From contig CANHRE010000007.1 in the NCBI GenBank assembly GCA_947463095.1, forward strand, positions 1 through 52,744: a DNA stretch of 52,744 bases, read 5' to 3'. The translations under genes and the position numbers were made by a program. Shown in pieces: positions 257-48,130 of the stretch. Each line of letters starts with the position of its first letter. Position 1 is the first letter of the stretch. The notes under the pieces were generated by a model, which saw only the letters and a list, made by a program, of their open reading frames with translations, ran no database searches and was not told where the DNA came from. Source of the stretch: Flavobacteriales bacterium. GTDB taxonomy: Bacteria > Bacteroidota > Bacteroidia > NS11-12g > UBA955.

Positions 257-757
257 TCAGAACTGAAAGCGATAACCGAGGTATAAACCAGTACTCTTGA
301 ATCTGAGCTTGTTGTCAAACTGAACCCCGTTGTTTTCAAACGGCTTCACATGGCTGAGCAAGGAGCGATGCAACGACCAGGAACACTCCAGATGTTTCAG
401 CCGGAAGCATAAACTAAGGGCTGTGATGGGCAACATACGCCGCGTGGATTGATGCGTGGCAGCTACAGCAAAGGGGTAAAACTCAGCCGGGGCGTTTTTA
501 TACAAACTGTAATCCGCCGTGAGCTCTTCAACGGGTCTTTGCAGGTAGGAACCAAGCCCTGCGGAACCAAAGAACTTGATCAATTTAACATTCATCGATG
601 CCGAATAATGAAACAGCAAACCGGGAAGACTGCCCGCTTGTGCATCAACAACGGGCCCTATAAACATTCAGATCCCCGCAGGCATGTTAAGTTCTTGAAG
701 AGTTGCCCCTATTTTGTAATGGTTCTGCAATTCAAAGTCATGGCTCAATACCAACAT
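257..757 (-). pseudogene. Possible remnant of an outer-membrane beta-barrel protein gene
   Basis: Frame ends ...RFKSTGLYLGYRFQF*, resembling a barrel C-terminus with terminal Phe. The same frame is open upstream of an in-frame TGA just before 667 (…KIGATLQELNMPAGI*MFIGPVVDAQAG…), and the IS256 element lies directly upstream. Confidence 0.3.
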
Positions 758-903
758 TGACAAAATATTATTTTGGACAGATGTGGATGATTGAACTATC
801 TTTCTTCCTGTAATAAAATATTTCAAAAATTCATTTGAAGAGCGATTCCAGATAACACAACATTAATAATTATAAAGAATATGAAACACGACATATTTAT
901 TGG

Positions 904-18900: not shown

Positions 18901-21900
18901 TACAGGCCATACAAACCTCCGGAATTTGTACTTAAACCAGTCATGAACACATTGTCCAAAATGTTGCGGCTGTAAACCTCTGTTAGCTGTGTACCACCTG
19001 AGGCACCATTATACACACCGTATATGGTCGTCGCGGTATTTCTGGCTCCCAGGTTTCTTATGGTATTTCCCCATACATAATTCAGCGTATCTGTTGATGT
19101 ATTGGTTAGATAAATCCCATAGATGGTCGAGCCGGTTGCGCCGGTCAGGGTATTATTCATCAATCTATTACCGGTGATATACCGATAACGTTGGGATGAT
19201 GTGGCCGGATAAATCCAGAATGCCGTACTACCGTGCGTGTTGCCTATCAAATCATTATCCTTGATATGCAGGAAACGTCCGGATGAAACACTATATATTC
19301 CATATAGCGTTCCTGAGAATCTGCTGTTGGAAAGAACGTTGCCATTGATTCTCATAGTACCTCCTGTGTAGGTAGCACCATGATAAATAGCAAAATGTGC
19401 TCCCGTTAGATTATCTAATGAATCATTGATAAACCGGTTGCGCAGGATTTCACCGTTCAGAGTTGAACCAGCCATCCACAACAAATAATTTGAGCTTGTG
19501 GATGTCTGACTAATGAAACTATTGCTGATTTCATTGTCTGCAATACGACATCTTCTGGTCGCAGCATTTGCGTAAATACCGTATATGTAACCATTTTGAA
19601 TGGTGTCCCTGGTGATGCTGTTTGAATCTATATAGTATTCATTGCTCGCAGTGTATGGTTGATACAATATGTAGCTTAACGTGGTGCCGGCAAAACCTCC
19701 GGAGAAGAAGCGGTCCATCCTGTTATTCGAAATTCTTCCTATGTTGCTCGCTCCTGGTCCGAAAATTCCATATTGATAATAGGTGGAGCGCATGTTTTCC
19801 ATCACGTTATCGCGAACGGTTACATTCACACCGGTAAAGGGTAGATAAAGACCATAGAAATATGACCCAGTAGAACCTCCTACACTAATGTTTCTGATGG
19901 TATTTCTGGCTATGGTCGCATGAGTGCCAGTGCCTGAATAGATACCAAAGAAGGCACTGCGACAGCTGTCTCCTTCAATGAGGTTATCAGTAATTCTCAG
20001 GGTGTCTGAGGTTCCGGCATGGAACAGCGCGTATTGGGTGCTGTTGGCTACAGGCTGCAACAAACCCTGTACAACGTTATTTGTAAGCACAGCATTGGAA
20101 GAGGACCCCGCATAAATTCCATAGATTCCAGTATTTGAACTGGTATCCCTGGAAATCGTATCGCGATCAATCAACAAATACCCCGGCTTACCTGCAGTGA
20201 AAATGCCATAGAGTTGACCCGGCAATACACCAAAGGTGCGTGAATTCCAGATTTTATTGTTGCGAATAAGTACCCTATTATTTGGGCCTCCGGCAGCAGA
20301 ATAAACACCTGCTACCACAAAGGTTCCGTTTCTTCCTTCCTGGCGTACAACTATGGTATTGTTTTGAACCTGAACGTTTTGGTTATTGTTTGCATTTGCC
20401 GCAAACACGGCTATGCCTAAAGTCTGAGCATAGTTCTGGAAACCACCGTCTGCAGTATTATCTACATAGTTGTTTGCCGCAAAGAAGAAGTTGGTTTCTG
20501 AAGAACGTATGCCATTGGCTGAAAGCTGCTGCGCTGTTGCTATGGCTGAGTCGCCCCAACCTGTGATTCTGCAATTGGTAACGCTGTCATATTGATTTAA
20601 GAGGTTGTACGGTGCTGCATCATTAAAGCCAATGATGTGGATACCTGTATTCACCCTGTTGATTCTAAGGTTATGGAATCGGCAGGAGTCATGACTTCCA
20701 AGCCTGCTGGTCAGGGCCAAAGGCTGATTGTCCGTTGAAAGCAAATTGGAGACAAGGATGCCTTTTGATCCTGAACCACCTACCTGGGCTCCAGCCACTT
20801 CGCGATGCCGTCTGGACATCCTGATGCTGGCATTCCGAATAACCACGCGCTTACAACCATCGTTGCTGCTGCTGTTCAACAGGGCGTAACCCCATTCCAT
20901 GAGCGTTGTTGGGTTCCTCGAAGTACTGCTGTCCTCAAGGTCAATTCCGTCAATGGTTACCCAGTCTTCACCAATAATTTTAAAGATACCATCAGGGCTT
21001 GCGGAGAGGTTGGTAGCTACCCCATTATATCCGTATACGATGGGATTTGCTCCGGTACCGCTCTTCTGGATAACCAGTTGCCTGTTCCGGCTTGGACGGA
21101 AACCTGCGCATGAGCTGTTGATGTATAACTGCAAACCACCAGAAGGAGCTACTTCCGTATGTCCGGCGCGCACATTAAGGGTCACTGCACCGCTCAGTCC
21201 TTTCAGGTTTACATCATTTAATGCATCTGCCAGGGTGCTGTAGTTTGGCGATGTTCCGCCAACGGTATAAGTACCCGACATGGGCGAACTGATAGCCCGT
21301 TTGCCTGTTGGACTGGAAGGTGTTATGTTATAGGTGGTACCAGCCAGCGTCAAATCAAGCGCTGATGCATCCACACTGTCACCACCATTCCCACATTTCA
21401 CGTCATAAGCAAGCCAGAAGTAGAAGGTATCGTTACAATACAGAGGCAAGGAACCGGTAAACGACATGGTTCCGCTTGGATTGGCAATGGTATTGCCAAA
21501 GCGGGGAGCACCCCCGCTGAAAATGGGCGAAGTACCGGTAAAATAAAGCTTAGCACTGTCCAAATCACGGGCTGTATTCGTTGTACCCGTGGTATTAAAC
21601 CGCATACGAGTCAGGTTCGGAGGCGAGACCGAGCCGCTGATGGCGACTTCCACACGCAGAATTGGCGCATTCCGCGCACCTTGAGACAAACCGCTCTGAA
21701 TTTGAATTACAGTATCCGCAACAGCCAGCGTAGAACCCAGAGGCGTAAAGCTTCCTTCATCCGCACCAATGTCAGGCTTGGAGGCGCTGCGTGCATCGTT
21801 GTCATAATCATCCGATACGGTTGAAATGGGTACACCTGCTGATTCAACCGCCGTACCTGTGCTTGTGCTGATGTGCAGGTAGTTAGGGCTTGTAGCTGTG

Positions 21901-24900
21901 GTACTGCGGAAACTCAGGCTGCTGCTCAACGAATATGCATCGCGAACACCGTTGCCCTGGTTCACAGAACGGTTCAGGAAGTCACAAATGGTCTTATCGC
22001 TTACAAGATCCGTAATATTTCTGTAAATGATGCTGTTGGTTGATGTACCGGTATAGTACAGGTTGTTACCAGTTTGCTGCAGGTAGTTGCTGGTAGGCAA
22101 ACCATTACCAGACCTGATTAATACCGCTGCAAAACCGGCTCCTGAAGGTGTACTGTTGTTGTAGAAGATGTTGTTGTTCATCAGGTAGCGTCCAGTACTC
22201 GTGCTCATGTTGATGGCAGCACTGTTGAAGGCGGCTCCTGTTGAACTTGCATTCAGGTAAACAGTATTGTAATACACCTGATGGTAAGCAGTACCACTCA
22301 GGTTCATGCCCGTCAGCCATGAAGTACTACTATTCATCGCTGGAGCTTTTACGTCTCCTACATAGTTGTTGTGCACCAGTGCGTCGAAACTGTTAGAGCT
22401 TAATAAGCCCATGATGTTTGCGGTAGAAGCACCGGTAGCATTCAAGTCTGCAATCTTGTTCTTATAAATTTCGGAATAACGGCAGCTCTGAACCACCATA
22501 CCGTACATGGTTGTAGCACTGGATGGATTTCCATACAAACGGGTAATGGTATTATTCGCAGCGGTTACAGAATCTGCCGCTGAACTAAATAAACCAAATA
22601 TGGTTGCTGAAGAATAAGTAGAGTTCGTGGAAATTGAATCCGCCAAGTTGTTATTCATGCGCACTATGTTTCCGTTGAGCAGATAAACAGGATATTCAAA
22701 ATCCAGTCCGCTGACGTTATTTACTCTGTTGGAATTGGCATCTACGTTCACATAGTTCTGATAAGAACCATACAAACCAAAGAACGAGTAACCACCTGGT
22801 GTGCTGGGCGTTTGTTTCACCAAACTCATCACGTTGTTGTTCATGGTGGTTAAAGAATCATAAATGGGGAATGTAGTGGTTGTATAGGCGTGATAGATGC
22901 CATAAACCGTTCCACCCGCCGAACCGGTATTGCTGATGTTCAGCATGGTATCGCGGTTAAATTCCCGGTATCGGGCGGCGTTGCTGCTCCAGAAACCATA
23001 GAGGGTTTTGGTGCTGGCGTAGTTCAGATTTTGAATGCTGTTATCGCTCACCACCAGGTTCCTTACCACGGGCAGTACATACACCCCGTAGAACGTTCCA
23101 CCTGAGTTAGAACTGAAGTTGCTGCTCAGGATTCGGTTTCCAGTAATGGTAATGTCCTGGTTACGTCCACCTGCATAGATGGCAATACCTCCGTGGGGTA
23201 TTGTCGAGGCTGTTGCTGGAGCATGATTCCAGGTGATACGGTTGTTGCGGATAATACCACCTGAGAAGTTTTCCAGGGTGGAAGTGTTGGAAGTTCCGGC
23301 CCCGATGCGGATGGCATAGAATGTTCCGCTTGTTCCGGGGTAATCACTTCCGCCGTCCGCTTTGTTGTCAATGAGGTTACCACTGATTACATAGCGGTTG
23401 GCATTCATCATTTGAATACCATTGGTCTCCACCGTGGAGCCGCCGAAGTTGGTCAGGCGGTTGTTGGCAATAGTATCGCGAAGGTCTTTTATGAAATAAA
23501 ACTGGCTGGCCAATTCCGGACCATACCAGTTGATGGGCATGTAGCAGTTGGTGATGGTGTTATTGCTGATGCGGATATCGTCATTGGTGCCGTCCTGCAG
23601 GGTTACAGCAGGTGAAGTACTTACCGCTGTAGTAAGGATGTTAGACACCAGAACTCCCACACAACCATTACCTGCCCTTGTGCTTCCACTGGTATTGTTG
23701 GCCTTGTTCAGCACGATGGAACAATTCTGAATCACAATACGCTTACATCCATCCCACGCGTTGCGCTTTAACAGGGCGATACCCCATTCTGCCTGAGTGG
23801 TAGTGGTGGTATTCAGTGAGGTGTCGCGGAATGCAAGACCGTCAATCGTGATGTAGTCATCGCTCACAATCTTGAGGATGGCATCAGGGCTGGCACCGGT
23901 AATGGTAGAAATCCCTGTGCCCGCAGAAATAATCGGCGCTGCTCCTGAACCTGCCGCACGGCGGATGGTCAATGTATTCACAACATTGGGACGGGTAGCT
24001 CCGCATGTAGTAGGATTCACGTTGATGACGATACCGCCTGCGGTAGCCCTTTCAATATGGCCGGGACGTACATCGAAAACCACAGGGCCGGAAAGTCCAC
24101 GGGTGTTCAGGTCGGTAACAGCCAGTGCCAGGGTGGCATACGAAGGCGTAGTACCACCAACAGTATATGTTCCGGACATACCGGTAACATTGGTGATTGT
24201 TCTGGTTCCGGTTGGCGCTCCACCGGTTACGGCGCTGGCTACTCCATTAATATATAAGGAGTCCATCTGACAATCAAGCACAAACGTGCCTGCTCCAGGA
24301 CAACGTACTCCATAGGTTACCCAGAAATAGGCTGAACCTGCACAGTTAATTTTCTGATTGATGTTGAAAGCAAAACTACCGTTGGGACCCACTCTTGTTC
24401 CAAGCAGCACGGGGCTGCTGTAGTTGAGGTTGCCTGCTGTGTACCAAAGCTTGGCCGTATCAATGCTGGTGGTGGCACTGGTAGTTCCGCTGGTGTTGAA
24501 TACCAAGCGGCTGATATTTACCGGAGCTGCGCTGCTCAGGCTGCTGAGGGCAATCTGTGAGCGCAGAATTTGGGCATCTCGGGTGCCCGAGTTTACCGCC
24601 AACGTTGATGGATGGGTAACCGTAATCGTAGCCGTTGCCGTAGAACCTGAAGGCACGCTTCCGTTGAATTCATCGGCTCCGATATCAGGCGTTACCGCGT
24701 TGCGGTTTTGACTTTCCACATCTGTGGTGAATCCAGTTATAAACCTTCCTCCGCCTTCGGCAAAAGTGGAAGTGGAGGTATTCACCAGCAAGAAATTACT
24801 GTTAGTATAGTTGGTTGACTGGAAAGCTACTACGCCCAAAACACTGTTAGCATCACGTTGCGGAGCAGCGGTCAGCCTGCTGGTAAACAAACACATGGTA

Positions 24901-27900
24901 GAATCCGAAATCGCATCTGCACTGTTCCGATACACCGGATACTTCGCGCGTGGCGTGGGATTCAGGTAGTACAAGTTATTGTTGCTTCGGTCAGAGTAGT
25001 TGGTGTTGGTAATACCGGTTGTTGTTTTCCAGAAGCCTGCAGTTAAACCGGTAGTTGCTGAACCAGGCGTTGAAGTGTTGTAGAAGATATTGTTGAACAC
25101 ATCGGCTGTTCCGCTTGAGCCGGGCCAGAACAGCGCTGCCGTGCTGAAACTGCTCGCCGATCCTGATGTATTCAGGAATACCGTGTTGTTAAAAATTCTT
25201 GCCGGTAGGGAAGGTGTGGACGTCATGGCAACCTCAATACCTGCCGCCGAAACAATTGACGGTGCAGTTGTGCTGATGTTGTTAGGTCCACTGATATTGG
25301 CAATGCGGTTGTTCCACACCGTGTAGTTACCATATCCACCGATTGCTATACCGCGACCATAACCATAAGCACTCAGGTTGCTGATATCAGAGATGATGTT
25401 ACCTCCTACAAAAATCCAGTTCGTTGTGGACGTTGACGTAAAGTTCAATCCGGTGGCAATCGAGTTGGCCGTTGATGTGGAATTGGTTACCACCCGGCTG
25501 ATGCGGTTGCGCAGGATGAATATCGAATCACCGATGGATAGCGAATAATCTATACCCAACGCTGTGGTAGTTCCTGCTGTTATGTTGGTGAACAACGAGT
25601 CAACTACGTTGTCACTGATTTCTATGTAATCACCATAACCGGAATAAATACCACGGATGCTTCCAAAACCATGAATCCTCCTGACAGTGTTGTTCTTCAT
25701 GATCAGGTTGTTGGATGAAGAAGTACCATGGCGCATACCCTCAACCGTAACAGCCGATGTGCTGTTCTCCGGACCATAGATTCCGAACACTGTGTTGCCG
25801 CGCATAAAATGCGTTCCATTCGTCGGTGAACCAAAGTCGTAATAACCATAAAAGATACCGGTTCCTGCACTACCCGGCACTATCAGGATGTTGGCAATCA
25901 GGTTGGAATCCGCCTGATACCAGGGGGTCGACACACTGTTCAAAATACCATAGCTGGTTGTACCATTACTCAATATATAGATACCGTCAGCGGGATTTAG
26001 GCCCCCAATGATGTTGCGGCTCAGTTCATACCCCTTTAGGTATGAGGTACTCGACACGGATGAGATGCCTGTAAACTGGTACGCACAGGTATCATCGTTA
26101 ATGATATTTTGGCGTACATACGCCTTTTCAATCATACCGCTGCTGTTACCCCAGTTGATGCCGGTGAAACTGCCGGTGCTGAAATTTACCCTGGAGTTGG
26201 TAACGCGGTTGCCAATAATCTGCAACCCATCTTTTACATAGGAGGTAACTGCAATACCAATGAAGCTGCCGTTGGCATTGAAGCAACGGTCCACGGTATT
26301 GTCGTTAAATACCATCCGGCAAACGCCGCCCAAATCGGTAAGCGCTCTGATGCCATATACGGTTGAACCTGATACCAGGTTGTTTCTGACAATGGTTGTG
26401 TTATTTCTACAAAAGGTGATTGCATTGTTGATTCCCTGTCCGGAAATCCAGATACCGTTAATACCGGTGCTGGCCGGAATGGAGGAGTACCCGATTTGGT
26501 TGTTGTTGTCAACCCGGTTGTTTTGTACCAGAAGCCTGTTGATGTTGTAGGTTTTGATGCCATTTTCTGCAAAACCCAGTACCAAATTGCCATTGGCAGC
26601 CAGCGCTCCACCAATAATGATGTCCTGGTCTATGTGCGTATAAGGAATGGTTCCATCCACAGCACCCCTGAACAAAATGCCGCTGTAAGCATTGATTACC
26701 GTATCGCTTTCCAGGGTGTCGAACTGACAACGACCTGAAGCCGAGATTGGGGTAATGGTTGTTGTAAGCGCATTGTTGGCTGCCGGTACAAAGGCAATAC
26801 CCTTGTTGCCGTTCTCAAACAAGGTCGGGCCCGAGTTGAATACCGGTGCTGCAAACCATATTCTGCTGTTGCGGATGGCTACGTTCTGAGATGCATTAAT
26901 GTTGCTGGCGCGGAACACAATAAAGGCCGCCTCCATCTGCGCTGCTCCGGTGGTATTGGAGTCGGACAGGTTTATACCGTCTATGGTTACGTAGTCAGAA
27001 CCGTGCAATGCCCATATATAGTCGACAGTTACTGAAGAAGTACTCAGGGTATTGGTACCTACTCCCGCGGTAATCTGGGGTTTGGCGCCGCTGCCGAAAG
27101 CCTGGAAGCGAATGGGGTTTGCTGCCGTGCCAGTTGTTGTGAGGTTAATGCCGGCTGCAGGCGCTGTTTCTCTGTGGCCTCTGGCCACATATACGTTAAC
27201 CGGTCCGCTGATGACACCACTGTTCAGCGCGGTGACAATTGAATTAATGGTAGGATAACATGCACTGGGAACCAGGTAGTTTCCACTGAAGCCAGTACCT
27301 GTTCCAACGGTGTATGTAAAATTGGCTCCCCCGTTGTTACCCAGATTCAGGGTGGCCATGTCATGTCCACTTTCTCCGAAAGAAGTAACATCAGCACGAA
27401 TGGCCGACAGTGATTTTGGAGATGTGTATATATAATAATATAAGGAGGTACCCGCTGTTTGGCAAGGAATGATAGCTCTGACGCTGGTGCCGCTCACGGT
27501 CATTTGAACCAGTGTTGATGTGGCAAATGTGGAACTGGTGCTCCAGCGCAGATAAACCTGTTCGCCGGAAGCAGGCGTTGAGCCAAGCACTGCTGTAACA
27601 AGTACACTGTTGCCCGGATTCACTGCACCGGCAGCAGGACTTTGGGACACCGAGGTAACGCTTGCCGGATTGAAGGAAGTTTCCAACACCGACATATTTT
27701 CGTTAGTCGGTATGGCACCTGTGCTGCGCTCCGTAATGTTTACAGTATAATATCTTCCTGCGGTTACTGAAGGATAGAATCCACTGGTTCCTCCTGAAGA
27801 AGTGTTGAAGGTAGCCGTAGCAGTAGTTGAAGGAAACGCTGTATTCGGCGTGATGTATTGATTGTAGCCCGCCAATGTAACCGGACCGCTATACGGACGC

Positions 27901-28154
27901 CAGTTTGTGGTATAGTTGGGTGAGGCCGCTGTACCTGTGGCAAATTCCCACTTCCTTGTACCGGAAGATGCTGATGAACTTGCCTGGAGTCGAACCTGCC
28001 TGAATGCGCCGCGGTCGGTAAGGTTATACGTGCTGTAAGACCCGCTAACCACTTCCGTTCCAAGTACCGTTGCCTGTCCGGAAACCGTCTGTGAACTGTT
28101 CACAAAAATCATGGCTGCAAATGCCGCCGTGAGTGCTTTGTAGAATTTATGCAT
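9924..28154 (-). CDS. Giant secreted T9SS substrate: three beta-helix modules, Ig-like repeat array, type A sorting domain
   Basis: Single 6,076-aa ORF. Signal peptide MHKFYKALTAAFAAMIFVNSSQTVSGQA; repeated N-rich beta-helix signatures (xxIxxNxIxNxxxxxxxxGIY); 29 repeats ending VRAEGTCNxTxCVS; C-terminus VALYPNPATTSVNLAIDL...GTYKLELGAISEGQYMVVVKNGSMRAVKRFTKL. Confidence 0.95.
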   Translation of the reverse strand: MHKFYKALTAAFAAMIFVNSSQTVSGQATVLGTEVVSGSYSTYNLTDRGAFRQVRLQASSSASSGTRKWEFATGTAASPNYTTNWRPYSGPVTLAGYNQYITPNTAFPSTTATATFNTSSGGTSGFYPSVTAGRYYTVNITERSTGAIPTNENMSVLETSFNPASVTSVSQSPAAGAVNPGNSVLVTAVLGSTPASGEQVYLRWSTSSTFATSTLVQMTVSGTSVRAIIPCQTAGTSLYYYIYTSPKSLSAIRADVTSFGESGHDMATLNLGNNGGANFTYTVGTGTGFSGNYLVPSACYPTINSIVTALNSGVISGPVNVYVARGHRETAPAAGINLTTTGTAANPIRFQAFGSGAKPQITAGVGTNTLSTSSVTVDYIWALHGSDYVTIDGINLSDSNTTGAAQMEAAFIVFRASNINASQNVAIRNSRIWFAAPVFNSGPTLFENGNKGIAFVPAANNALTTTITPISASGRCQFDTLESDTVINAYSGILFRGAVDGTIPYTHIDQDIIIGGALAANGNLVLGFAENGIKTYNINRLLVQNNRVDNNNQIGYSSIPASTGINGIWISGQGINNAITFCRNNTTIVRNNLVSGSTVYGIRALTDLGGVCRMVFNDNTVDRCFNANGSFIGIAVTSYVKDGLQIIGNRVTNSRVNFSTGSFTGINWGNSSGMIEKAYVRQNIINDDTCAYQFTGISSVSSTSYLKGYELSRNIIGGLNPADGIYILSNGTTSYGILNSVSTPWYQADSNLIANILIVPGSAGTGIFYGYYDFGSPTNGTHFMRGNTVFGIYGPENSTSAVTVEGMRHGTSSSNNLIMKNNTVRRIHGFGSIRGIYSGYGDYIEISDNVVDSLFTNITAGTTTALGIDYSLSIGDSIFILRNRISRVVTNSTSTANSIATGLNFTSTSTTNWIFVGGNIISDISNLSAYGYGRGIAIGGYGNYTVWNNRIANISGPNNISTTAPSIVSAAGIEVAMTSTPSLPARIFNNTVFLNTSGSASSFSTAALFWPGSSGTADVFNNIFYNTSTPGSATTGLTAGFWKTTTGITNTNYSDRSNNNLYYLNPTPRAKYPVYRNSADAISDSTMCLFTSRLTAAPQRDANSVLGVVAFQSTNYTNSNFLLVNTSTSTFAEGGGRFITGFTTDVESQNRNAVTPDIGADEFNGSVPSGSTATATITVTHPSTLAVNSGTRDAQILRSQIALSSLSSAAPVNISRLVFNTSGTTSATTSIDTAKLWYTAGNLNYSSPVLLGTRVGPNGSFAFNINQKINCAGSAYFWVTYGVRCPGAGTFVLDCQMDSLYINGVASAVTGGAPTGTRTITNVTGMSGTYTVGGTTPSYATLALAVTDLNTRGLSGPVVFDVRPGHIERATAGGIVINVNPTTCGATRPNVVNTLTIRRAAGSGAAPIISAGTGISTITGASPDAILKIVSDDYITIDGLAFRDTSLNTTTTTQAEWGIALLKRNAWDGCKRIVIQNCSIVLNKANNTSGSTRAGNGCVGVLVSNILTTAVSTSPAVTLQDGTNDDIRISNNTITNCYMPINWYGPELASQFYFIKDLRDTIANNRLTNFGGSTVETNGIQMMNANRYVISGNLIDNKADGGSDYPGTSGTFYAIRIGAGTSNTSTLENFSGGIIRNNRITWNHAPATASTIPHGGIAIYAGGRNQDITITGNRILSSNFSSNSGGTFYGVYVLPVVRNLVVSDNSIQNLNYASTKTLYGFWSSNAARYREFNRDTMLNISNTGSAGGTVYGIYHAYTTTTFPIYDSLTTMNNNVMSLVKQTPSTPGGYSFFGLYGSYQNYVNVDANSNRVNNVSGLDFEYPVYLLNGNIVRMNNNLADSISTNSTYSSATIFGLFSSAADSVTAANNTITRLYGNPSSATTMYGMVVQSCRYSEIYKNKIADLNATGASTANIMGLLSSNSFDALVHNNYVGDVKAPAMNSSTSWLTGMNLSGTAYHQVYYNTVYLNASSTGAAFNSAAINMSTSTGRYLMNNNIFYNNSTPSGAGFAAVLIRSGNGLPTSNYLQQTGNNLYYTGTSTNSIIYRNITDLVSDKTICDFLNRSVNQGNGVRDAYSLSSSLSFRSTTATSPNYLHISTSTGTAVESAGVPISTVSDDYDNDARSASKPDIGADEGSFTPLGSTLAVADTVIQIQSGLSQGARNAPILRVEVAISGSVSPPNLTRMRFNTTGTTNTARDLDSAKLYFTGTSPIFSGGAPRFGNTIANPSGTMSFTGSLPLYCNDTFYFWLAYDVKCGNGGDSVDASALDLTLAGTTYNITPSSPTGKRAISSPMSGTYTVGGTSPNYSTLADALNDVNLKGLSGAVTLNVRAGHTEVAPSGGLQLYINSSCAGFRPSRNRQLVIQKSGTGANPIVYGYNGVATNLSASPDGIFKIIGEDWVTIDGIDLEDSSTSRNPTTLMEWGYALLNSSSNDGCKRVVIRNASIRMSRRHREVAGAQVGGSGSKGILVSNLLSTDNQPLALTSRLGSHDSCRFHNLRINRVNTGIHIIGFNDAAPYNLLNQYDSVTNCRITGWGDSAIATAQQLSANGIRSSETNFFFAANNYVDNTADGGFQNYAQTLGIAVFAANANNNQNVQVQNNTIVVRQEGRNGTFVVAGVYSAAGGPNNRVLIRNNKIWNSRTFGVLPGQLYGIFTAGKPGYLLIDRDTISRDTSSNTGIYGIYAGSSSNAVLTNNVVQGLLQPVANSTQYALFHAGTSDTLRITDNLIEGDSCRSAFFGIYSGTGTHATIARNTIRNISVGGSTGSYFYGLYLPFTGVNVTVRDNVMENMRSTYYQYGIFGPGASNIGRISNNRMDRFFSGGFAGTTLSYILYQPYTASNEYYIDSNSITRDTIQNGYIYGIYANAATRRCRIADNEISNSFISQTSTSSNYLLWMAGSTLNGEILRNRFINDSLDNLTGAHFAIYHGATYTGGTMRINGNVLSNSRFSGTLYGIYSVSSGRFLHIKDNDLIGNTHGSTAFWIYPATSSQRYRYITGNRLMNNTLTGATGSTIYGIYLTNTSTDTLNYVWGNTIRNLGARNTATTIYGVYNGASGGTQLTEVYSRNILDNVFMTGLSTNSGGLYGLYLTNGLTGNSPRRFMDSNVVNSLVNQGIGPITGIYSNYGTIGVDIKGNRIDSLISFGGTIRGIEIATIGTQNFTVSRNTISDLQAYGITGAPLISGIRYAAPGAGAKLFLSNNRIANLNVPVNSSTAIRGIEIAGGGATDTAFIDYNTVYLNASTAGANLTASGIYVLATPRVMMRNNLVVNTSTPKGSGYTVAHERSSSALTTYIPGSNGNSFFAGTPGAANLIFRDGINSVQTLAAYKTLMGATRDLISVSVNPVFQSTSFLADSFLRLQVLNPANCSLNKGGVPVNYVNTDFWNFGRSATNPDIGVHEFTPIPAITTQPADTAVCPGGNAFFAVRSFPSSGVNYQWFRNGVALANGGVFSGVTRDTLRLSGVTTSNAGLYSVKVWLCAGDSITSRSAVLGVNTLSIAATGIKISPSDSVCPGATVTLEVQGGTKGTGASWRWYTGSCGGTALTTGDKITVNPTVQTVYFVRAEGTCNNTACVNDTIFIRPVSVAATGIVASADTVCPGSSVTLSVNGGTLGDKAGWKWFTGSCGGTAAGTGASITVSPTSTTRYFVRAEGTCNNTTCVDQNIRVLSNSVAPTGITVSADSVCNGSSVTLSVSGGGLGSNARWRWYSSSCGGTSVGTGASITVSPSASTTYFVRAEGTCNTTSCVSRTIKVNNFSVAASSITGNDSVCNGSSITLSVNGGSLGGNASWRWYTGSCGGTAAGTGSSITVSPSSGTTYFVRAEGTCNSTVCVSKAIKVNTLSIAATSISTTADSICNGNNVTLTRVGGSLGSNAVWKWYSSSCGGTFISSANAITVSPTATTTYFLRAEGTCNNTVCISRTVKVNALSVAANGITASPDSICNGNSVTLMPSGGSLGGNASWKWYLGNCGSTLIGTGNSLTVSPTVNTVYYLRAEGTCNASACVNRQLKVNQPSTAATSINSSVDSVCAGSSVTLTAVGGSLGSNANWKWYSGSCGGTLVGTGSYIVVNPSATTTYFLRAEGTCNNTTCVSRTVKVNALSTAASAAVAAVDSLCPGGSTSLSVSGGSLGGNASWKWYSGTCGGTLLGSGSSITVTPSATTTYYVRAEGTCNSTACVNVTVRRMSLSVSANAISATTDSVCSGGPTTLQVSGGSLGNGATWKWYSGSCGGTALGSGSSITVNPKVRTTYFVRAEGACNTTACVSKIINIRDTSIGASGLTATLDTLLPGQKTKLKVTGGKLGAGARWVWYAGGCGTGKPVGYGDSLSTAIPQQTTFYVRAEGICNSAPCVSKLIFLRDSSKAAISIIATSDTICKGKSVTLSPNGGKLGFKSSWVWYSGTCGGTKIGSGNSITVSPTVNTTYFVRAEGSINITACVVKTITVKDTSEPATSITAGNDSICAGNNTMLYVNGGKLAPGANWKWYSGSCGGTFIGTGTSVSVSPSVTTTYYVRAEGSCNNTVCVAKTIKVNRLSIAATAVTVSRDSVCNGANVTLTVSGGSLGSNAAWKWYDNNCGGTSIHSGSTLTVAPSASTTYFVRAEGTCNTTACASKAVKVNYPSVAASSISAPDSVCAGTSATLKLTGGTLGSNASWKWYSDSCGKVSVGTGSTISVAPSATTTYFLRAEGTCNSTACVSKIVKVLRNSVAATSINGPDSVCNGSSATLSVNGGSLGSNAGWKWYTSFCGGTLVGSGTSVTVTPVSATTYYLRAEGTCNNTTCLTKTVTISRGSTAASSIVASKDTTCGTSNITLTVSGGTLGTGATWKWYAGSCGGASVGTGSSVVVTPSASTTYYVRAEGICGNTACVSKTITLNALSFAASSISASDDTTCTGTDVVLTVKGGTLGTGASWKWYAGTCGGTSIGSGTTLKVSPTVTTTYFVRAEGVCNSTVCVSKSIIVEALSTAPVSVSSNATSTCGKTTVTLTVNGGSLGGRASWVWYAGNCGGTAIGKGSSINVVPTVTTSYYVRAEGPCNTTTCANATIIVNTPSTDPTSIGTTFDSTCGGSNVTLSVNGGSLGTGASWKWYTVACGGTSIGTGSSITVAPTATTTYFVRAEGICNNTVCVNRTIKVNMSSTAASSVTSTLDSICPNGAVVTLTRNGGTLGSNANWVWYEGSCGGTSIGVGNSITVTPTSSSTYYVRAEGTCNNTACVSKFIQVNTESVAASAITASVDSVCSGGSTTLRVSGGSLGSNATWKWYIASCGGIPAGTGASITVSPSVTTLYFVRAEGTCNVTNCVSKSIKVNRLSTAPTGITTTADSTCGNTNVTLSVVGGALGDNASWVWYNNTTRIGTGKSIVVSPTATTTYSVRAEGTCNNTSYVFRTIKVNIWSVAASSVSLSKDSTCGTESVRLSIVGGSLGSNARWRWYTGFCGGTAIGSGPSITTTPTATTTYFVRAEGTCNITTCAPGRTVKVNTRSVAATSISATLDSVCKGGTVKLTVNGGTLGSNATWVWYQDACGSKKLGSGLSIVVDPDITTTYFVRAEGTCNTTVCVSRSVKVLVPSTDPTQATASVKSLCGSGLVTFKVQGGSLGSNAKWVWYERGCGTGAPVAEGASVQLNVSVTTTFFVRAEGTCNTTACQSVTVQVNDFSTPATTISTTADSVCKGSTVTLSISGGSLGTAANWKWYKNGCGLGASVATGTSYSVRIDDPVTYYVRAEGTCNTTACLSVSVGVYTESHNPDKVTSSADTSCGGPITLNVVGGKLGSGAQWVWYSGACGSAYEGTGKSLTVTPAANTTYFVRAEGYCNTTVCAFKSLFTGSASTGPVSISVSNDTPCRGEEVKLTVNGGTLGKGAEWKWYHTSCGGSLQGSGTSITKVPNGSTIFFVRAEGPCNITACVNKPVRVLLPSTAAAGIVTSTDTILNGASIKLSIFGGSRGDNARWVWYKDACGKGAPIGFGSSIVVAPAGSTTYYVRAEGTCDTTVCISRTVNVWGMGVNDPDALANKVALYPNPATTSVNLAIDLISNEETSVELLDAQGRLVRTYQLSGRPGTYKLELGAISEGQYMVVVKNGSMRAVKRFTKLTP
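9927..10200 (-). other. T9SS C-terminal sorting domain of the giant protein
   Basis: LYPNPATTSVNL...VELLDAQGRLVRTYQLSG...ISEGQYMVVVKNG...KRFTKL matches the type A CTD pattern. Confidence 0.9.
10206..17685 (-). repeat. Array of 29 in-frame Ig-like repeats, about 258 bp (86 aa) each
   Basis: Counted 29 (V/L)RAEG motifs, each preceded by C-x-G...VTLxVxGGSLGxxAxWKWYxGxCGGTxxGxGxSIxVxPxxTTTY. Resembles the CHU_C-associated Ig-like family of Bacteroidota. Confidence 0.92.
17700..17960 (-). other. Classical Ig-like domain between the beta-helix region and the repeat array
   Basis: ITTQPADTAVCPGGNAFFAVRSFPSSGVNYQWFRNGVALANG...LRLSGVTTSNAGLYSVKVWLCAG. Confidence 0.8.
17965..27300 (-). repeat. Three paralogous parallel beta-helix modules, the first two each followed by a BNR_assoc_N-like domain
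   Basis: Module starts near 27300, 24180 (MSGTYTVGGTTPSYATLALAVTDLN) and 21282 (MSGTYTVGGTSPNYSTLADALNDVN); module ends PDIGADEFNGS (about 24680), PDIGADEGS (about 21775), PDIGVHEF (about 17980). Confidence 0.8.
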
Positions 28155-42747: not shown

Positions 42748-42829
42748 GGCTTTAAGAAAGCGCAAAATGCAACATTTTCGGTAAAAATCCCGTTTCGCAA
42801 GCTCCTGTGGTTCTCGAAGGCAGCCCTGT

Positions 42830-42910
42830 TGTCATGGTATCCCTCGGCTTCGCTCCCCCACCCCCACAGCTCATTGCTAAGTCGACTTGGTGGGGGCAGG
42901 CACCATGACA
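42830..42910 (+). repeat. H element, complete copy (H1)
   Basis: Terminal inverted repeats TGTCATGGT...ACCATGACA with internal CCCCCAC...GTGGGGG arms. Confidence 0.75.
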
Positions 42911-43178
42911 GATTTTTAATCACCATGACAGGTATTTTGGCTCCACACAACATAAGGCATTACTAATTTCAAACCATCTAACAAATTACAACCCAACAAC
43001 GCCGCAAAAGGACCGGCCTCAAATGATGGGAGGTGTTAAACGCAGCAAGCCGCCGCTAAATGCCGAGGAAGCTGCCCGGGAACCAGCACTTACCACTTAC
43101 CACTTACCACTTATCCCTTACCACTATCCAAGCAGCCTTGATTTTTTGCTTACTTTTTCATCAAGGAAAAAGTAAGAG
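42901..43178 (+). repeat. R element copy A
   Basis: CACCATGACAG...CAACGCCGCAAAAGGACCGGCCTCAAATGATGGGAGGTGTTAAACGCAGCAAGC...TTACCAC repeats...CTTACTTTTTCATCAAGGAAAAAGTAAGAG. Confidence 0.8.
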
Positions 43179-43300
43179 AAAAGAATAGTGTAAGGTTCAT
43201 TCAGTGGTGAGCAGAATCCCTAAGCGCTCTAAAATAAAATTTAGCCAAATTTGCCATCACTTAATTATTCACGGTTTCCCGCCGCTCGCTTCGCGTGGTA

Positions 43301-43347
43301 GTGCCTGCCCCCACTGAATTGCGTTAGCAATGAACTGTGGGGGAGCG
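43301..43347 (-). repeat. H element core in reverse orientation (H2)
   Basis: GTGCCTGCCCCCACTGAATTGCGTTAGCAATGAACTGTGGGGGAGCG; its reverse complement aligns with the H1 core CGCTCCCCCAC..CAG.TCATTGCTAA...GTGGGGGCAGGCAC. Confidence 0.7.
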
Positions 43348-43379
43348 TTTGGAACTACCCCCAATGGTTCGACGCGGCT

Positions 43380-43660
43380 CACCATGACAGACTTTATATG
43401 CTCACCATGACAGGCTTTTTGGCTCAACATGACATAAGACATTGCGAATTCCAACCCATCCCACCAACCACTATTCAGCAACGCCGCAAAAGGACCGGCC
43501 TCAAATGATGGGAGGCGTTAAACGCAGCAAGCAGACGCTAAAAGCCAAGGAAGCTCCGAGCCGCTCGGGGACCGGCACTTACCACTTACCACTTATCCCT
43601 TACCACTATCCAAGCAGCCTTGATATTTTGCATCCTTTTTCATCAAGGAAAAAGTAAGAG
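43380..43660 (+). repeat. R element copy B
   Basis: Same ordered segments as copy A, offset by about 480 bp in direct orientation. Confidence 0.8.
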
Positions 43661-43798
43661 ACAATTCTTGCTTAAGGATTCAATAGGTTGGCACAGACCC
43701 CTGTCATAAGCATATATTCAAAATGAGCTCAGGATGACAGCACCATGACAGGCTTTCTTGCTTACCTTAACATGCTCTTCTGTTTTCGCAGAGCACCT

Positions 43799-45382
43799 TC
43801 AGGGTGCAGCAATCATTCCCCGCAAATCATCCAACGTATTGATTTCCTGCACCGTCTTATCGCGGCGCCAGCGCACCATGCGCGGAAAGCGCACCGCTAT
43901 GCCTGATTTATGCCGCTTGCTGGCACCAATACCTTCAAAGGCAACTTCAAAAACCAGCTGCGCCTCTACCGAACAAACCGGCCCAAAACGCTCAAGGGTA
44001 TGGTCTTTAATCCAGCGGTTGATGGCAGCAAACTCGTCGTCACTCAACCCTGAATAGGCCTTGGTAAAGGGCACCAGGTTCCGCTGGGCATCATAAACGG
44101 CGAAGGTGAAATCGGTATAAAGCCCGGCGCGGCGACCATGACCGCGTTGGGCATAAATCATCACCGCGTCCACGGTATAGGGATCTGTTTTCCATTTCCA
44201 CCAGGAGCCCTTGCGGCGTCCAGTCTGATAAGACGCATCCCGTTGCTTGAGCATAAAGCCTTCAGCCAGGTGTTCCCGGGCCTGAGCGTGCAGGTCCTTC
44301 AACCCTGACCAGCTGTCAAACGCCACCAGGGGCGAAATTCCCAGAGTGGGCAAATCCAGGCGTGCTACCAAGGCTTCCAGCAACGCCCTTCGCTCCTGCT
44401 GCGGTTTCCGGCGGATGTCTTCACCTTCCCATTCCAAAAGATCATAAGCCAGCATGACCACCGGAGCCTTTTTCATGGTGGCCGCCGACACCTGCTTCCG
44501 GCCCAATCTTGACTGCAACACCTGAAAGGGCAGCGGCTTCCCTTCGCTCCAGGCCAGCACCTCACCATCCACCACTGCCTGTATATCTGCCAGCGCCGGA
44601 TGCGATACCAGCTCCGGAAACTGTGCACTGATCAGCTCTTCACCCCGCGACCACAGATGCACCTGTCCCCCACGCGCAACCAACTGCCCACGGATGCCGT
44701 CCCACTTCCACTCTGCAAACCAGTCTTCGGGCTTGCCCAAGTGCGCTAAGTCCTGCTCTAATGGATAGGCCAGATAAAAGGGATAAAGCCGCGCATCATC
44801 GCGACGCTCGTCGAGCAGCAATTCCTGCCAGCCTGTTGTTTGCGGACTCCAGTTCCCCGAAAGGCGCAAGGCCACCACCGCGTCTTCCAGACCCAAAAGC
44901 CTGGCAAGTGCCTGCACGAGCAACTGCTGCGACACACCTACCCTGAAACCACCGGTAATCAGCTTATTGAACACAAAACGTTCATGCCTGCCCATGCCCA
45001 TCCATATGCTATGCACAGCTTCCCGCACCTCTGCGGATTCACGGCTTTTCCAGGAACTGATTTCTTCCATGCATTCCGCCAGCGACATCCGGCAATGCTC
45101 CACGCCTTCCGGAACCAGGGCTGCCAGGCATTCGCTCATGTCGCCGGCAATATGCCAGCATTCATCTACCAACCAAAGCGGAATTCCCGCCATTTCACCG
45201 GCCCAGGCGCGCAGCATGGTGGTGTTGATGCTCCGTCGCGGCCTGCGGTGCGTGAACAGTGCCACGGCCCAAACACGGTCGGCCTCCGGCGCTTCCCTGA
45301 AATAGTCCATCAGGGCTTCCTTCTTTTTGGTTGTTGAAGTGGTTTGGTCTAAAGCGGCGATGAGGTGGGCGAATTGTTTCAT
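43799..45382 (-). CDS. Ligase-associated ATP-dependent DNA ligase
   Basis: Active-site motif EWKWDGIRGQL (KxDG), VDGEVLAW, EGFMLKQRDASYQTGRRKGSWWKWK, C-terminal RFPRMVRWRRDK. Confidence 0.93.
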   Translation of the reverse strand: MKQFAHLIAALDQTTSTTKKKEALMDYFREAPEADRVWAVALFTHRRPRRSINTTMLRAWAGEMAGIPLWLVDECWHIAGDMSECLAALVPEGVEHCRMSLAECMEEISSWKSRESAEVREAVHSIWMGMGRHERFVFNKLITGGFRVGVSQQLLVQALARLLGLEDAVVALRLSGNWSPQTTGWQELLLDERRDDARLYPFYLAYPLEQDLAHLGKPEDWFAEWKWDGIRGQLVARGGQVHLWSRGEELISAQFPELVSHPALADIQAVVDGEVLAWSEGKPLPFQVLQSRLGRKQVSAATMKKAPVVMLAYDLLEWEGEDIRRKPQQERRALLEALVARLDLPTLGISPLVAFDSWSGLKDLHAQAREHLAEGFMLKQRDASYQTGRRKGSWWKWKTDPYTVDAVMIYAQRGHGRRAGLYTDFTFAVYDAQRNLVPFTKAYSGLSDDEFAAINRWIKDHTLERFGPVCSVEAQLVFEVAFEGIGASKRHKSGIAVRFPRMVRWRRDKTVQEINTLDDLRGMIAAP

Positions 45383-46395
45383 TCTGTTCCCTCCTCGCGC
45401 ATATCGGCAGATTCACCGGTGAAGTTGGCGCGCACCACCTGGGCATCCAGTCCGTGCATTTCATTCAGATAGCGCGAAAACAGCGCCGCATAGCCGTGGG
45501 TAACAAATACCTGTGCAGCGCCGGTGGCCAGCACCGCGGAACGAAGGCCATCCCAGTCGGCATGGTCGCTCAGGGCAAATCCACGCTCGGCATTCATCCA
45601 CCTGCGGGTTCCGCGCAGCGCCATCCAGCCGCTGGCTGCAGCCTCAGCATAAGGCTCAAAGCGCTTGGTCCAGTTGCTCTCGGCTACCGAGGCGGGTGCG
45701 ATGATTACCGTACCCGGCGCAATATGCTGTTGTCCTGAAACCAAAGGCGGGTTGGGAATATCGAGTCCTGCGGCCAGCAGCGCCAGATTGGTATTGCGCA
45801 CGGAACCATGCACCAGCATGGGTACTCCAGCTGCATGCAGGGCGCACATGATGCGCTGTGCTTTCCCCAGCGAATAGGCATGGATGAAGGCATTGCGCCC
45901 TTCGGCAGCAAGACCGCGTATCCATTGAAGCATATCGGCAACCACTTCCTCCTGGGGCCTCCAGCGAAACAAAGGAAGGCCGAAGGTGCTTTCCGTTACA
46001 AAATGGGTGCAGCGTATGGGCTCAAAAGGCGTGCTGAGGCCATCGTTTTCCGTTTTATAATCGCCGGAAAGCACCCATACCTCATCTTTATAAGCCACGC
46101 GCACCTGCGCCGAGCCGGGAATATGCCCTGCCGGGTGTAGGCTCAGTTCCACTCCGTTGATAAAACGCTTTTCGCCGTACTCCAGTGTTTCCAGGCTGAT
46201 GTCGGAACCCAGACGCAGACGCATCACTGGCCCCGACACGCGATGGGCGAGGTAGTGGCCATGCCCGCGGTAGGAATGGTCGGAATGGGCATGCGTAATG
46301 ACGGCACGCGGCACCGGCTTCCAGGGGTCTATATAGAAATCACCCCGGGCACAATAGAAACCCCGTTCCGTAAAGCTGATCAACACAAGCGACAA
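45379..46395 (-). CDS. Ligase-associated DNA damage response exonuclease (SNM1-like metallo-beta-lactamase fold)
   Basis: AVITHAHSDHSYRGHGHYLAH, LHPAGHIPGSAQVRVAY, VLSGDYKTENDGLSTPFEPIRCTHFVTESTFGLP; stop overlaps the ligase start by 4 nt. Confidence 0.92.
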   Translation of the reverse strand: MSLVLISFTERGFYCARGDFYIDPWKPVPRAVITHAHSDHSYRGHGHYLAHRVSGPVMRLRLGSDISLETLEYGEKRFINGVELSLHPAGHIPGSAQVRVAYKDEVWVLSGDYKTENDGLSTPFEPIRCTHFVTESTFGLPLFRWRPQEEVVADMLQWIRGLAAEGRNAFIHAYSLGKAQRIMCALHAAGVPMLVHGSVRNTNLALLAAGLDIPNPPLVSGQQHIAPGTVIIAPASVAESNWTKRFEPYAEAAASGWMALRGTRRWMNAERGFALSDHADWDGLRSAVLATGAAQVFVTHGYAALFSRYLNEMHGLDAQVVRANFTGESADMREEGTE

Positions 46396-46496
46396 ACTTC
46401 GTGAAGCAGGATTATGTTTGGGTCATTTAGCCGGAAAGCTTTGCAATTTTCGATGATGCAGAACATAGTTTTGTTTGCGGAAGCAAGCAGCTTTCT

Positions 46497-47660
46497 ATGT
46501 TTCGCCACATCACAAATACCGTATGGGTATTATCCCTGGTGAGCCTGTTCACCGACATGGCCAGCGAGATGCTGTACCCCGTCATGCCACTCTACCTGAA
46601 GCAAATAGGTTTTTCGGTGTTGCTCATCGGGATCCTCGAAGGCATGGCAGAGGCCACGGCGGGGTTGAGCAAAGGCTACTTCGGCAGACAATCTGACCTG
46701 TCCGGCAAGCGCGTTCCTTTTGTACAGTGGGGATATTCCCTGAGCGCGGTTGCCAAGCCACTGCTGGCTTTGTGGACACACCCCGCGTGGGTATTCGGGG
46801 CGCGCACCCTGGACAGGCTGGGTAAAGGCATCCGAACAGGCGCCCGAGACGCCCTGCTCTCTGATGAATCAGCTTCCGGAAGGAAAGGCACCGTTTTTGG
46901 ATTCCACCGCTCTATGGATACCCTGGGCGCTGCCCTCGGACCGGCACTGGCCCTGCTTTATCTGAACTTCTACCCACAGCATTACCGCGAACTGTTCCTG
47001 CTGGCCTTCTTTCCGGGTTTCCTTGCCATGCTGAGTACCCTGTGGCTTCGCCCGAAAACCCTGACATTAAAGCCTAAAAGACCCAAACCATCCTTTTTTA
47101 GTGCCATGAGTTACTGGCGCCATAGTCCGCAGGCGTACAGAAAACTCAGCGCCGGACTGCTGGTATTCGCCCTGTTCAACAGCTCTGATGTGTTCCTGCT
47201 GCTTCGCGCACGTGAAAGCGGCATGGATGACCCATCGCTCATTGGCATATATATCGCCTACAACTTGGTGTACGCACTGAGCTCCTATCCTCTTGGGATA
47301 CTGGCTGACCGCATCGGTTTGAAAAACATCCTGTTGTTCGGCATGCTGGTTTTCTCTCTGGTTTATGCCGGGATGGCTTTTTCAGAAAACACCTTCATAC
47401 TGGGCTCCCTATTCCTCCTATACGGATTATATGCCGCCGCCACCGACGGGATATCCAAAGCGTGGATCAGCGGAATCGTGGAGCGCAAGGATTCAGCCAC
47501 AGCCTTGGGCAGTTTTGCGGGTTTTCAGAGCATTGCTGCCTTGCTGGCCAGCACCTTGACCGGCTTGCTTTGGATGCTGGCCGGAGCCGAATTCAGTTTG
47601 TTGTGCTCCGCCGTGGCTGCTTGTGGCGTAGCGGTTTACCTGAGGTTTTTTGTGCGGTGA
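46497..47660 (+). CDS. MFS transporter
   Basis: NTVWVLSLVSLFTDMASEMLYPVMPLYLKQIGFSVLLIGILEGMAEATAGLSKGYFGRQSD...RTLDRLGKGIRTGARDALLSDE. Confidence 0.92.
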   Translation: MFRHITNTVWVLSLVSLFTDMASEMLYPVMPLYLKQIGFSVLLIGILEGMAEATAGLSKGYFGRQSDLSGKRVPFVQWGYSLSAVAKPLLALWTHPAWVFGARTLDRLGKGIRTGARDALLSDESASGRKGTVFGFHRSMDTLGAALGPALALLYLNFYPQHYRELFLLAFFPGFLAMLSTLWLRPKTLTLKPKRPKPSFFSAMSYWRHSPQAYRKLSAGLLVFALFNSSDVFLLLRARESGMDDPSLIGIYIAYNLVYALSSYPLGILADRIGLKNILLFGMLVFSLVYAGMAFSENTFILGSLFLLYGLYAAATDGISKAWISGIVERKDSATALGSFAGFQSIAALLASTLTGLLWMLAGAEFSLLCSAVAACGVAVYLRFFVR

Positions 47661-47687
47661 TTTGGGAGTTCGTAAGTTTTGGAGTTC

Positions 47688-47777
47688 CTGTCATGGTGTC
47701 CCTCGGTTACGCTCCACCACCCCCACGGTGTCTTGCTACGCGTCATAGTGAGTTCATCGAACTACAGTGGGGGCAAT
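47688..47777 (+). repeat. H element (H4), lacking the right terminal ACCATGACAG
   Basis: CTGTCATGGTGTCCCTCGGTTACGCTCCACCACCCCCACGGTGTCTTGCTACGC...CAGTGGGGGCAA. Confidence 0.7.
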
Positions 47778-47898
47778 CCAGGGGGGGGTAGACGCCTCGC
47801 TCGGGCGGGGCTTACCTAAATTCTAGGCACCCCAATTTCGCAAGCTACTACCGAACAAGTGGAGGCTGTCCCTAACCATTTTTATCCATTCCACCAAA

Positions 47899-48130
47899 CA
47901 ACGCCGCAAAAGGATCGGCCTCAAATGATGGGAGGCGTTAAACGCAGCAAGCAGACGCTAAATGCCAAGGAAGCTCCGAGCTGCTCGACTCCCCCTGTCG
48001 CTGCGCTTACGGGGCAAGCTGCTCCCCCACCCCCACGGTGTCTTGCTGCGCAATCCATTGGGGGCAAGCAGTTGCTTTGCTACTCGGTGGGGGCAGGCGG
48101 GGACCGGCTCTTACCACTTACCACTTATCC
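47899..48130 (+). repeat. R element copy C, interrupted by an H element and truncated on the right
   Basis: CAACGCCGCAAAAGGATCGGCCTCAAATGATGGGAGGCGTTAAACGCAGCAAGCAGACGCTAAATGCCAAGGAAGCTCCGAGCTGCTCG | about 111-bp insert | GGGGACCGGCTCTTACCACTTACCACTTATCC. Confidence 0.8.
47988..48098 (+). repeat. H element (H5) nested within R copy C
   Basis: GCTCCCCCACCCCCACGGTGTCTTGCTGCGCAATCCATTGGGGGCAA...GGTGGGGGCAGGC shares its core with H4; absent from R copies A and B at the same point. Confidence 0.7.

Follow-up and report, generated by a model that had tools for sequence, protein, structure and literature searches.

A stretch of 52,744 nucleotides from a Flavobacteriales bacterium (assembly GCA_947463095.1, contig CANHRE010000007.1; hereafter the window) carries three copies (A, B and C) of an intergenic repeat with an almost invariant core, and the question that it raises is whether such identity in non-coding DNA bespeaks a function or a recent history of spread, both of which an earlier note made from the letters alone had suggested. 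Our observations favor the latter: we consider it very probable that A, B and C represent portions of a non-autonomous miniature inverted-repeat transposable element (MITE) with ends derived from an IS4-type insertion sequence (IS), in which the 5' arm of a structured module travels as passenger (the two claims being taken jointly). The invariance of the core would then be due to recent common descent through MITE amplification, not to retained function. Genomes and loci are designated below by G and L numbers.

The repeat itself is unambiguous, as the 20-mer CGGCCTCAAATGATGGGAGG has three exact occurrences in the window, all on the + strand (positions 43014, 43496 and 47916), against a mean of 0.00 in 100 dinucleotide shuffles. 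On the basis of sequence, self-comparison and matches elsewhere in the genome, the cores were delimited at 42995..43078 (A), 43479..43555 (B) and 47897..47975 (C), all on the + strand, and the part of them that corresponds to the 5' arm of a rod-like hairpin (known from the module alignment and structure described below) spans 43015-43073 in A and begins at 43497 in B and at 47917 in C. Downstream of the core all three copies possess the CTTACCA heptamers that had been reported for them, in arrays of five units in A (43089..43123, +), four in B (43578..43605, +) and three in C (48110..48130, +), where copy C stops without a tail hairpin. The tail of A (43136..43176, +) is composed of CCTTGAT, a T-rich linker and a hairpin (CTTACTTTTTC / GAAAAAGTAAG) whose loop ATCAAG is complementary to CTTGAT, a layout matched in 34 of the 37 elements tested; in the tail of B (43618..43658, +) sequence and folding indicate that the outer hairpin stem is decayed. 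The sharing of an additional tail by A and B alone was likewise borne out (CATCAAGGAAAAAGTAAGAG, absent from C), with an identity of 90% over 102 nt, while the two copies are 84% identical over 154 nt and C reaches 64% in the same register. All copies are intergenic and in a common orientation: the interval that holds A and B separates an amino-acid permease gene from a DNA ligase gene, and C is bordered by a major facilitator superfamily gene and a peptidase S46 gene. No transposase gene was seen beside them, the genome as a whole not having been searched for such genes; in these respects the earlier description holds. Its placement of the copies also stands, but the copies run well past the core that it gave, and A and B (period 482 bp) look like a tandem pair or dimer rather than two independent insertions. 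A degenerate MITE left end may lie between them (43218..43246, +; CTAAGCGCTCTAAAATAAAATTTAGCC versus CACATCTGTCCAAAATAATATTTAGCC), an assignment of low confidence made by eye.

Within the window's own 2.6-Mb genome the core matches 34 places (E < 1e-3; several at contig ends) instead of being confined to three, and it does so inside MITEs with terminal inverted repeats (TIRs) and 9-bp duplications, in agreement with the recent spread that had been proposed. Of the two same-genus genomes searched, G001 has three core matches and G002 none, and eight diverged copies were found in G009 (another genus of the same family); an exact 29-mer has a single match among GTDB contigs (JAGWYC010000013.1, 'Bacteroidetes bacterium isolate REEB481'), with flanks identical to those of the G001 locus. 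The copies fall into two types. In type I the core leads into CGAGGAGATCACCG...GGCATTCGGC...GCCTTTCATCATTTGCAGCCTTGA, after which come a T-rich linker and the hairpin CTTACTTTTTC-ATCAAG-GAAAAAGTAAG, and the segment after the core constitutes the opposite arm of a long hairpin (e.g. CAAATGATG pairing with CATCATTTG). In type II, to which A, B and C belong, CTTACCA-type heptamers, varying in number between copies in the manner of a minisatellite, occupy the place of the rod 3' arm. Pattern classification of 31 copies yielded 19 of type II, 10 of type I and 2 that are cut. The window copies fold no better than shuffled sequences (minimum free energy (MFE) z-scores of -0.5, +1.0 and +0.9 for A, B and C), by which they are shown to be a derived form that has lost the module structure; the minisatellite has replaced the 3' arm in A-C, so that the structure can no longer form. 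As 19 of the 31 copies share this form, the identity of the core follows from amplification, and the step from near-identity to function was a weak one, given that recent common descent accounts for it. No recurrent neighboring gene or protein was found beside the copies, beyond the repeat's own translations and shared flanks.

The vehicle is best seen in the window's genus, where the MITEs have 15-bp TIRs (CACWKCTGTCCAAAA; ends CACATCTGTCCAAAA / CACTGCTGTCCAAAA) whose paired ends are 377-663 bp apart; i.e. the elements are short (<1 kb), multi-copy and devoid of transposase coding. Terminal repeats are accompanied by target duplications of fixed length, three of the nine paired elements being flanked by perfect 9-bp ones (CTTTGAAAT at L199, AGCTGGAAC at L201, GTTTCGATT at L210), and a solo left end of the same MITE is found at the other extremity of the window (671..785, -; TIR CACATCTGTCCAAAA at 771-785). 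A putative partner was recovered from G002, a sister species within the genus, in which a 1341-bp element (L191) with the same TIRs encodes, with frame breaks, PF14294 (DUF4372, 6e-16) and PF01609 (DDE_Tnp_1, 3e-10), and the first 90 and last 100 non-coding bases of which resemble the MITE ends. We take DUF4372 elements to belong to the IS4 family. Since relatives of the MITE without the module exist (L192 and L204 are not matched by the model described below), and since in this genus the module occupies the position of the transposase gene, we argue that it rides as cargo. The best-supported route of spread in the window's genus would be an IS4-family DDE transposase, of inferred activity, that acts in trans on the TIRs and duplicates 9 bp at insertion, and A-C would now spread solely as passengers of the MITE. 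A plasmid collection gave no match for the IS or for the one module version searched.

Several observations weigh against this assignment. The window copies possess neither an intact TIR pair nor a target duplication of their own, so that they are placed within the MITE by homology to other copies; the IS4-type partner is decayed and belongs to the sister species, while the window's genome is an incomplete metagenome-assembled genome (MAG); and duplications are perfect in only a third of the paired elements (the three named above).

The intact module measures about 168 nt and has two parts, a rod-like hairpin, the 5' arm of which is the core of the window copies, and after it a terminal hairpin with a loop (NTCAAG) that is complementary to CTTGAN upstream. 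When 14 type I modules of two genera were aligned and counted on a structure with the tail pairing included, 97.9% of the cells are paired, double (compensatory) changes are present in 18 of 55 pairs (1-3 in slid controls), and the covariation score amounts to 0.302, as against 0.141 in shuffled alignments and at most 0.056 with the partners slid; part of the lead over the slid controls is to be expected, as the structure had been drawn from these very sequences, which moreover represent two related groups. Other genera lend independent support: among 35 elements, the second closing pair of the rod is G-C in 27, A-T in 4, C-G in 2 and T-A in 1. In 34 of 37 elements CTTGAN faces NTCAAG in the loop of the hairpin (the fixed bases being a condition of the search), and the free sixth position is paired with its upstream counterpart in 32 of these 34 (T-A 18, C-G 10, A-T 4), where about 14 would be expected by chance from the marginals. 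Moreover, the terminal stem is variable in sequence yet complementary, and the MFE z-scores of the modules are low (median -5.4; below -3 in 30 of 34). Taken together, the compensatory changes support the fold and a conserved structure of the module.

The single likeliest reading of the intact copies, although one to which we would give somewhat less than an even chance, would have the fold employed as RNA, and the tail may then protect or mark the 3' end. Two sets of observations temper it. The linkers between the loop pairing and the terminal stem have zero length, so that the two can never be complete at once, and the tail might instead represent a partly opened pseudoknot or a switch. Furthermore, the G-U versus A-C changes that could tell RNA from DNA do not settle the matter: within G132 they number 21 versus 2 cells, which reduce to just 6 versus 2 distinct events, and across genera 13 versus 15, i.e. 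without asymmetry. The 'functional RNA/DNA element' of the earlier note therefore fits the wider family, by its covariation and phylum-wide occurrence, and not the window copies, in which the partner arm is gone and folding is at shuffle level.

A covariance model (R1; matches at E of 1e-3 or better, those near the limit possibly including chance ones), which the earlier note had recommended building, matched the module across the class and beyond: in 85 of 296 genomes and 58 of 155 genera of the class and, of 249 genomes sampled from the phylum, in 48, 28 of them outside the class. The module is mostly intact in these genomes and frequently present in numerous copies. Multi-copy genomes each carry their own version of the module (in G132, at least 40 copies at 94-98% identity), and across genera the rod sequence is mostly different, while three features are maintained, a GNCCT start, the AGNCTTGA tail and the fold. 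No Rfam family was matched above the gathering score by the element of the window copies or by ten type I/G009 loci, so that neither of the two outcomes named in the earlier note as refuting it (a core confined to three places, a match to a catalogued family) was obtained, and the IS4-family relationship came to light through shared TIRs rather than a catalogue; the tail motif was not found printed in any relevant paper of the open-access library searched. Upstream of the element at L024 (1075-1172) there is a sub-threshold Rfam match to RF03531 (n00280; 37.5 bits, gathering 65.2), described as a small RNA included in a helicase gene, and coding similarity is thus likely at this locus. Whereas copies elsewhere are dispersed, the modules at L164 and L166 (G341, a single-contig genome) are arrayed in tandem, in near-identical repeats of about 333 bp. 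By a crude count of open reading frames, the neighboring gene pairs of the G132 copies are convergent in 16 cases, tandem in 12 and divergent in 1, and this avoidance of divergent pairs fits insertion filtered by harm as well as it does any function.

The vehicle changes between lineages and the module is retained, as judged from the extents of the copies. Full-length copies in G132 reach about 245 nt to the left and 66 nt to the right of the module and have sharp ends, where imperfect TIRs (AACTGACTATCCGCATGTAG / AACTGAGTATCCGCTTAAAG) are accompanied by AT-rich ~9-bp duplications, and in the same genome minis of about 100-128 bp share those TIRs without a full module. In G253 and G063 the shared sequence stops at or near the module boundaries (stand-alone units), and G009 copies have yet other ends. 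Comparison of a stand-alone copy in G164 with its presumed empty site found synteny not kept. At L041 (G009; ~1377-1560) about 33 bp of a gene 3' end (CTGGGAAAACTGCCCGG...GCAAAACCCTGA) are repeated on both sides of a module copy, which is unusual. Only tentatively, and with less conviction than the use of the fold as RNA, would we extend these observations to a phylum-wide mobile family of structured RNAs, self-spreading in some genera (G253, G063) and repeatedly captured by unrelated MITEs elsewhere, in which the fold, and not sequence or vehicle, would be under selection, with no reverse transcriptase, REP-associated tyrosine transposase (RAYT; REP, repetitive extragenic palindromic) or linked transposase behind the stand-alone form.

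Among the alternatives, the most serious (though in our opinion unlikely) is that the module works as DNA, its single-stranded hairpins serving as ends for a transposase (HUH/Y1, RAYT-like or other) in the manner of REP sequences or palindrome-associated transposable elements (PATE), without any RNA role. Such a role would agree with the neutral G-U/A-C ratio across genera and with the left hairpin that resembles the inverted right one in most G009 copies (which have no obvious target duplication) and has a similar counterpart in G132; moreover, atypical secondary structures have been described on the flanks of Y1 subclass 2.6, which comes mainly from Bacteroidetes (PMC6006769). Against it, the module had no match in 30 Y1 loci (these being the best-scoring Y1 matches and no complete set of a subclass), a single Y1 gene was found in the window's genome and has other repeats on its flanks, and several near-complete genomes bear the module without any Y1 match (G145, G129, G284 and G305). 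A RAYT/REP linkage, which would place the copies beside a Y1 gene, was rejected on the same three grounds (Y1 loci without modules, other repeats around the Y1 gene of the window's genome, module-bearing genomes without Y1). The Y1 gene of the window's genome (L111, G000:C54, 1-2236) lies in a REPtron-like setting, flanked by the TAATCCCGTAGGGATGGCACATCGGTAG family and by tandem GTTACCGATATACCATGCCTACGGCATTGGTTACG copies.

The compensatory changes might also be a mutational by-product, given that long quasi-palindromes undergo template-switch correction during replication, by which helices would be restored without selection. We regard this as improbable: many helix pairs do differ wholesale between genera, as such a process would have it, but it would also erase mismatches, while an asymmetric rod base, an apical internal loop and the tail motif are encountered repeatedly in genera that share little helix sequence, and the interleaved pairing of the tail differs from that of a simple palindrome. 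Still less credence can be given to the window copies being themselves functional (as small RNAs or as cis elements acting on neighboring genes), which would explain the near-identical core, the common orientation, the intergenic position and the tail kept in A and B; the rod 3' arm is absent from them, their folding is that of shuffled sequence, C has no tail and harbors another repeat, and their form is that of most classified copies. Least probable of all is a retrotransposition akin to that of short interspersed nuclear elements (SINEs), in which the module RNA would be copied by a resident reverse transcriptase with the tail as recognition end: the 3' tail is indeed conserved and some G132 and G009 copies are without their left part, but no PF00078 reverse transcriptase was found in 9 of the 16 module-bearing genomes searched (including G132 and the single-contig G341), and the G132 unit, with its TIRs and ~9-bp duplications, resembles a DNA transposon. 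An integron attC site, prompted by a GTTAAAC motif, was ruled out, as the opposite site varies between copies and the copies are dispersed.

The other repeat, inserted within copy C, is a separate palindrome (CCCCCAC ... GTGGGGG; 47985..48098, assigned to neither strand; repeat family D5) that is not found at the corresponding position of copy B. It belongs to a second palindromic family (CCCCCAC ... GTGGGGGCAGGCACCATGACAG) nested in and around the copies (42820-42930, 43300-43345, 47711-47790 and 47985-48098), which yields mosaic repeats; in G009, CCCGATAGCTATCGGG palindromes are present within the module linker. Elsewhere in the window, a single open reading frame (9924-28154, -) encodes a giant protein of 6076 aa.

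Known systems resemble the element in part. Enterobacterial repetitive intergenic consensus (ERIC) sequences are long imperfect palindromes of enterobacteria, which form an intergenic rod-like hairpin and are present in many copies without coding capacity. The module shares with them its rod-like intergenic hairpin of similar size, its copy number and its non-coding nature, but belongs to another phylum and differs by the terminal hairpin/pseudoknot tail, the association with TIR-bearing MITEs, and the turnover of sequence between genera with the structure kept. IS4 insertion sequences (DUF4372 + DDE_Tnp_1) and their derived MITEs have the same TIRs, 9-bp duplications and similar non-coding ends; here, however, a foreign, conserved and structured module fills the interior in place of a transposase gene, and the one partner recovered is decayed. 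BrickBuilt and MITE464/PgRS of Porphyromonas gingivalis likewise represent a Bacteroidota MITE with an internal tandem-repeat minisatellite, IS-like TIRs and about 19 copies (PMC4596501); the repeats are of 23 nt, the TIRs of IS5 type and the description is from within P. gingivalis, in contrast to the 7-nt units, IS4-type TIRs and phylum-wide structured module described here. REP sequences and REPINs with their RAYT (TnpA-REP), including subclass 2.6 (PMC6006769), are likewise multi-copy, intergenic, palindromic and bacterial, but span 21-65 nt (as compared to ~168 nt), and the module has an interleaved tail motif and no linked Y1 gene in the tested loci. MITEs with internal minisatellites (PMC4596501) and Y1 genes flanked by atypical structures (PMC6006769) are thus already known in Bacteroidota; what appears to be new is a structure-conserved module, without an Rfam entry, that is common to MITEs with different ends across the phylum.

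As MAG contigs end at these repeats, their annotation is of practical value, and the window copies illustrate clearly how damaged copies can keep an invariant core that looks functional but records recent transposition. More broadly, Bacteroidota harbor, in some genomes in tens of copies and on MITEs with different ends, a non-coding module that keeps its fold in spite of sequence turnover between genera. Should it act as RNA, a major phylum would possess in it one of its more abundant structured RNAs still missing from catalogues; should it act as DNA, it would represent a new kind of transposon end.

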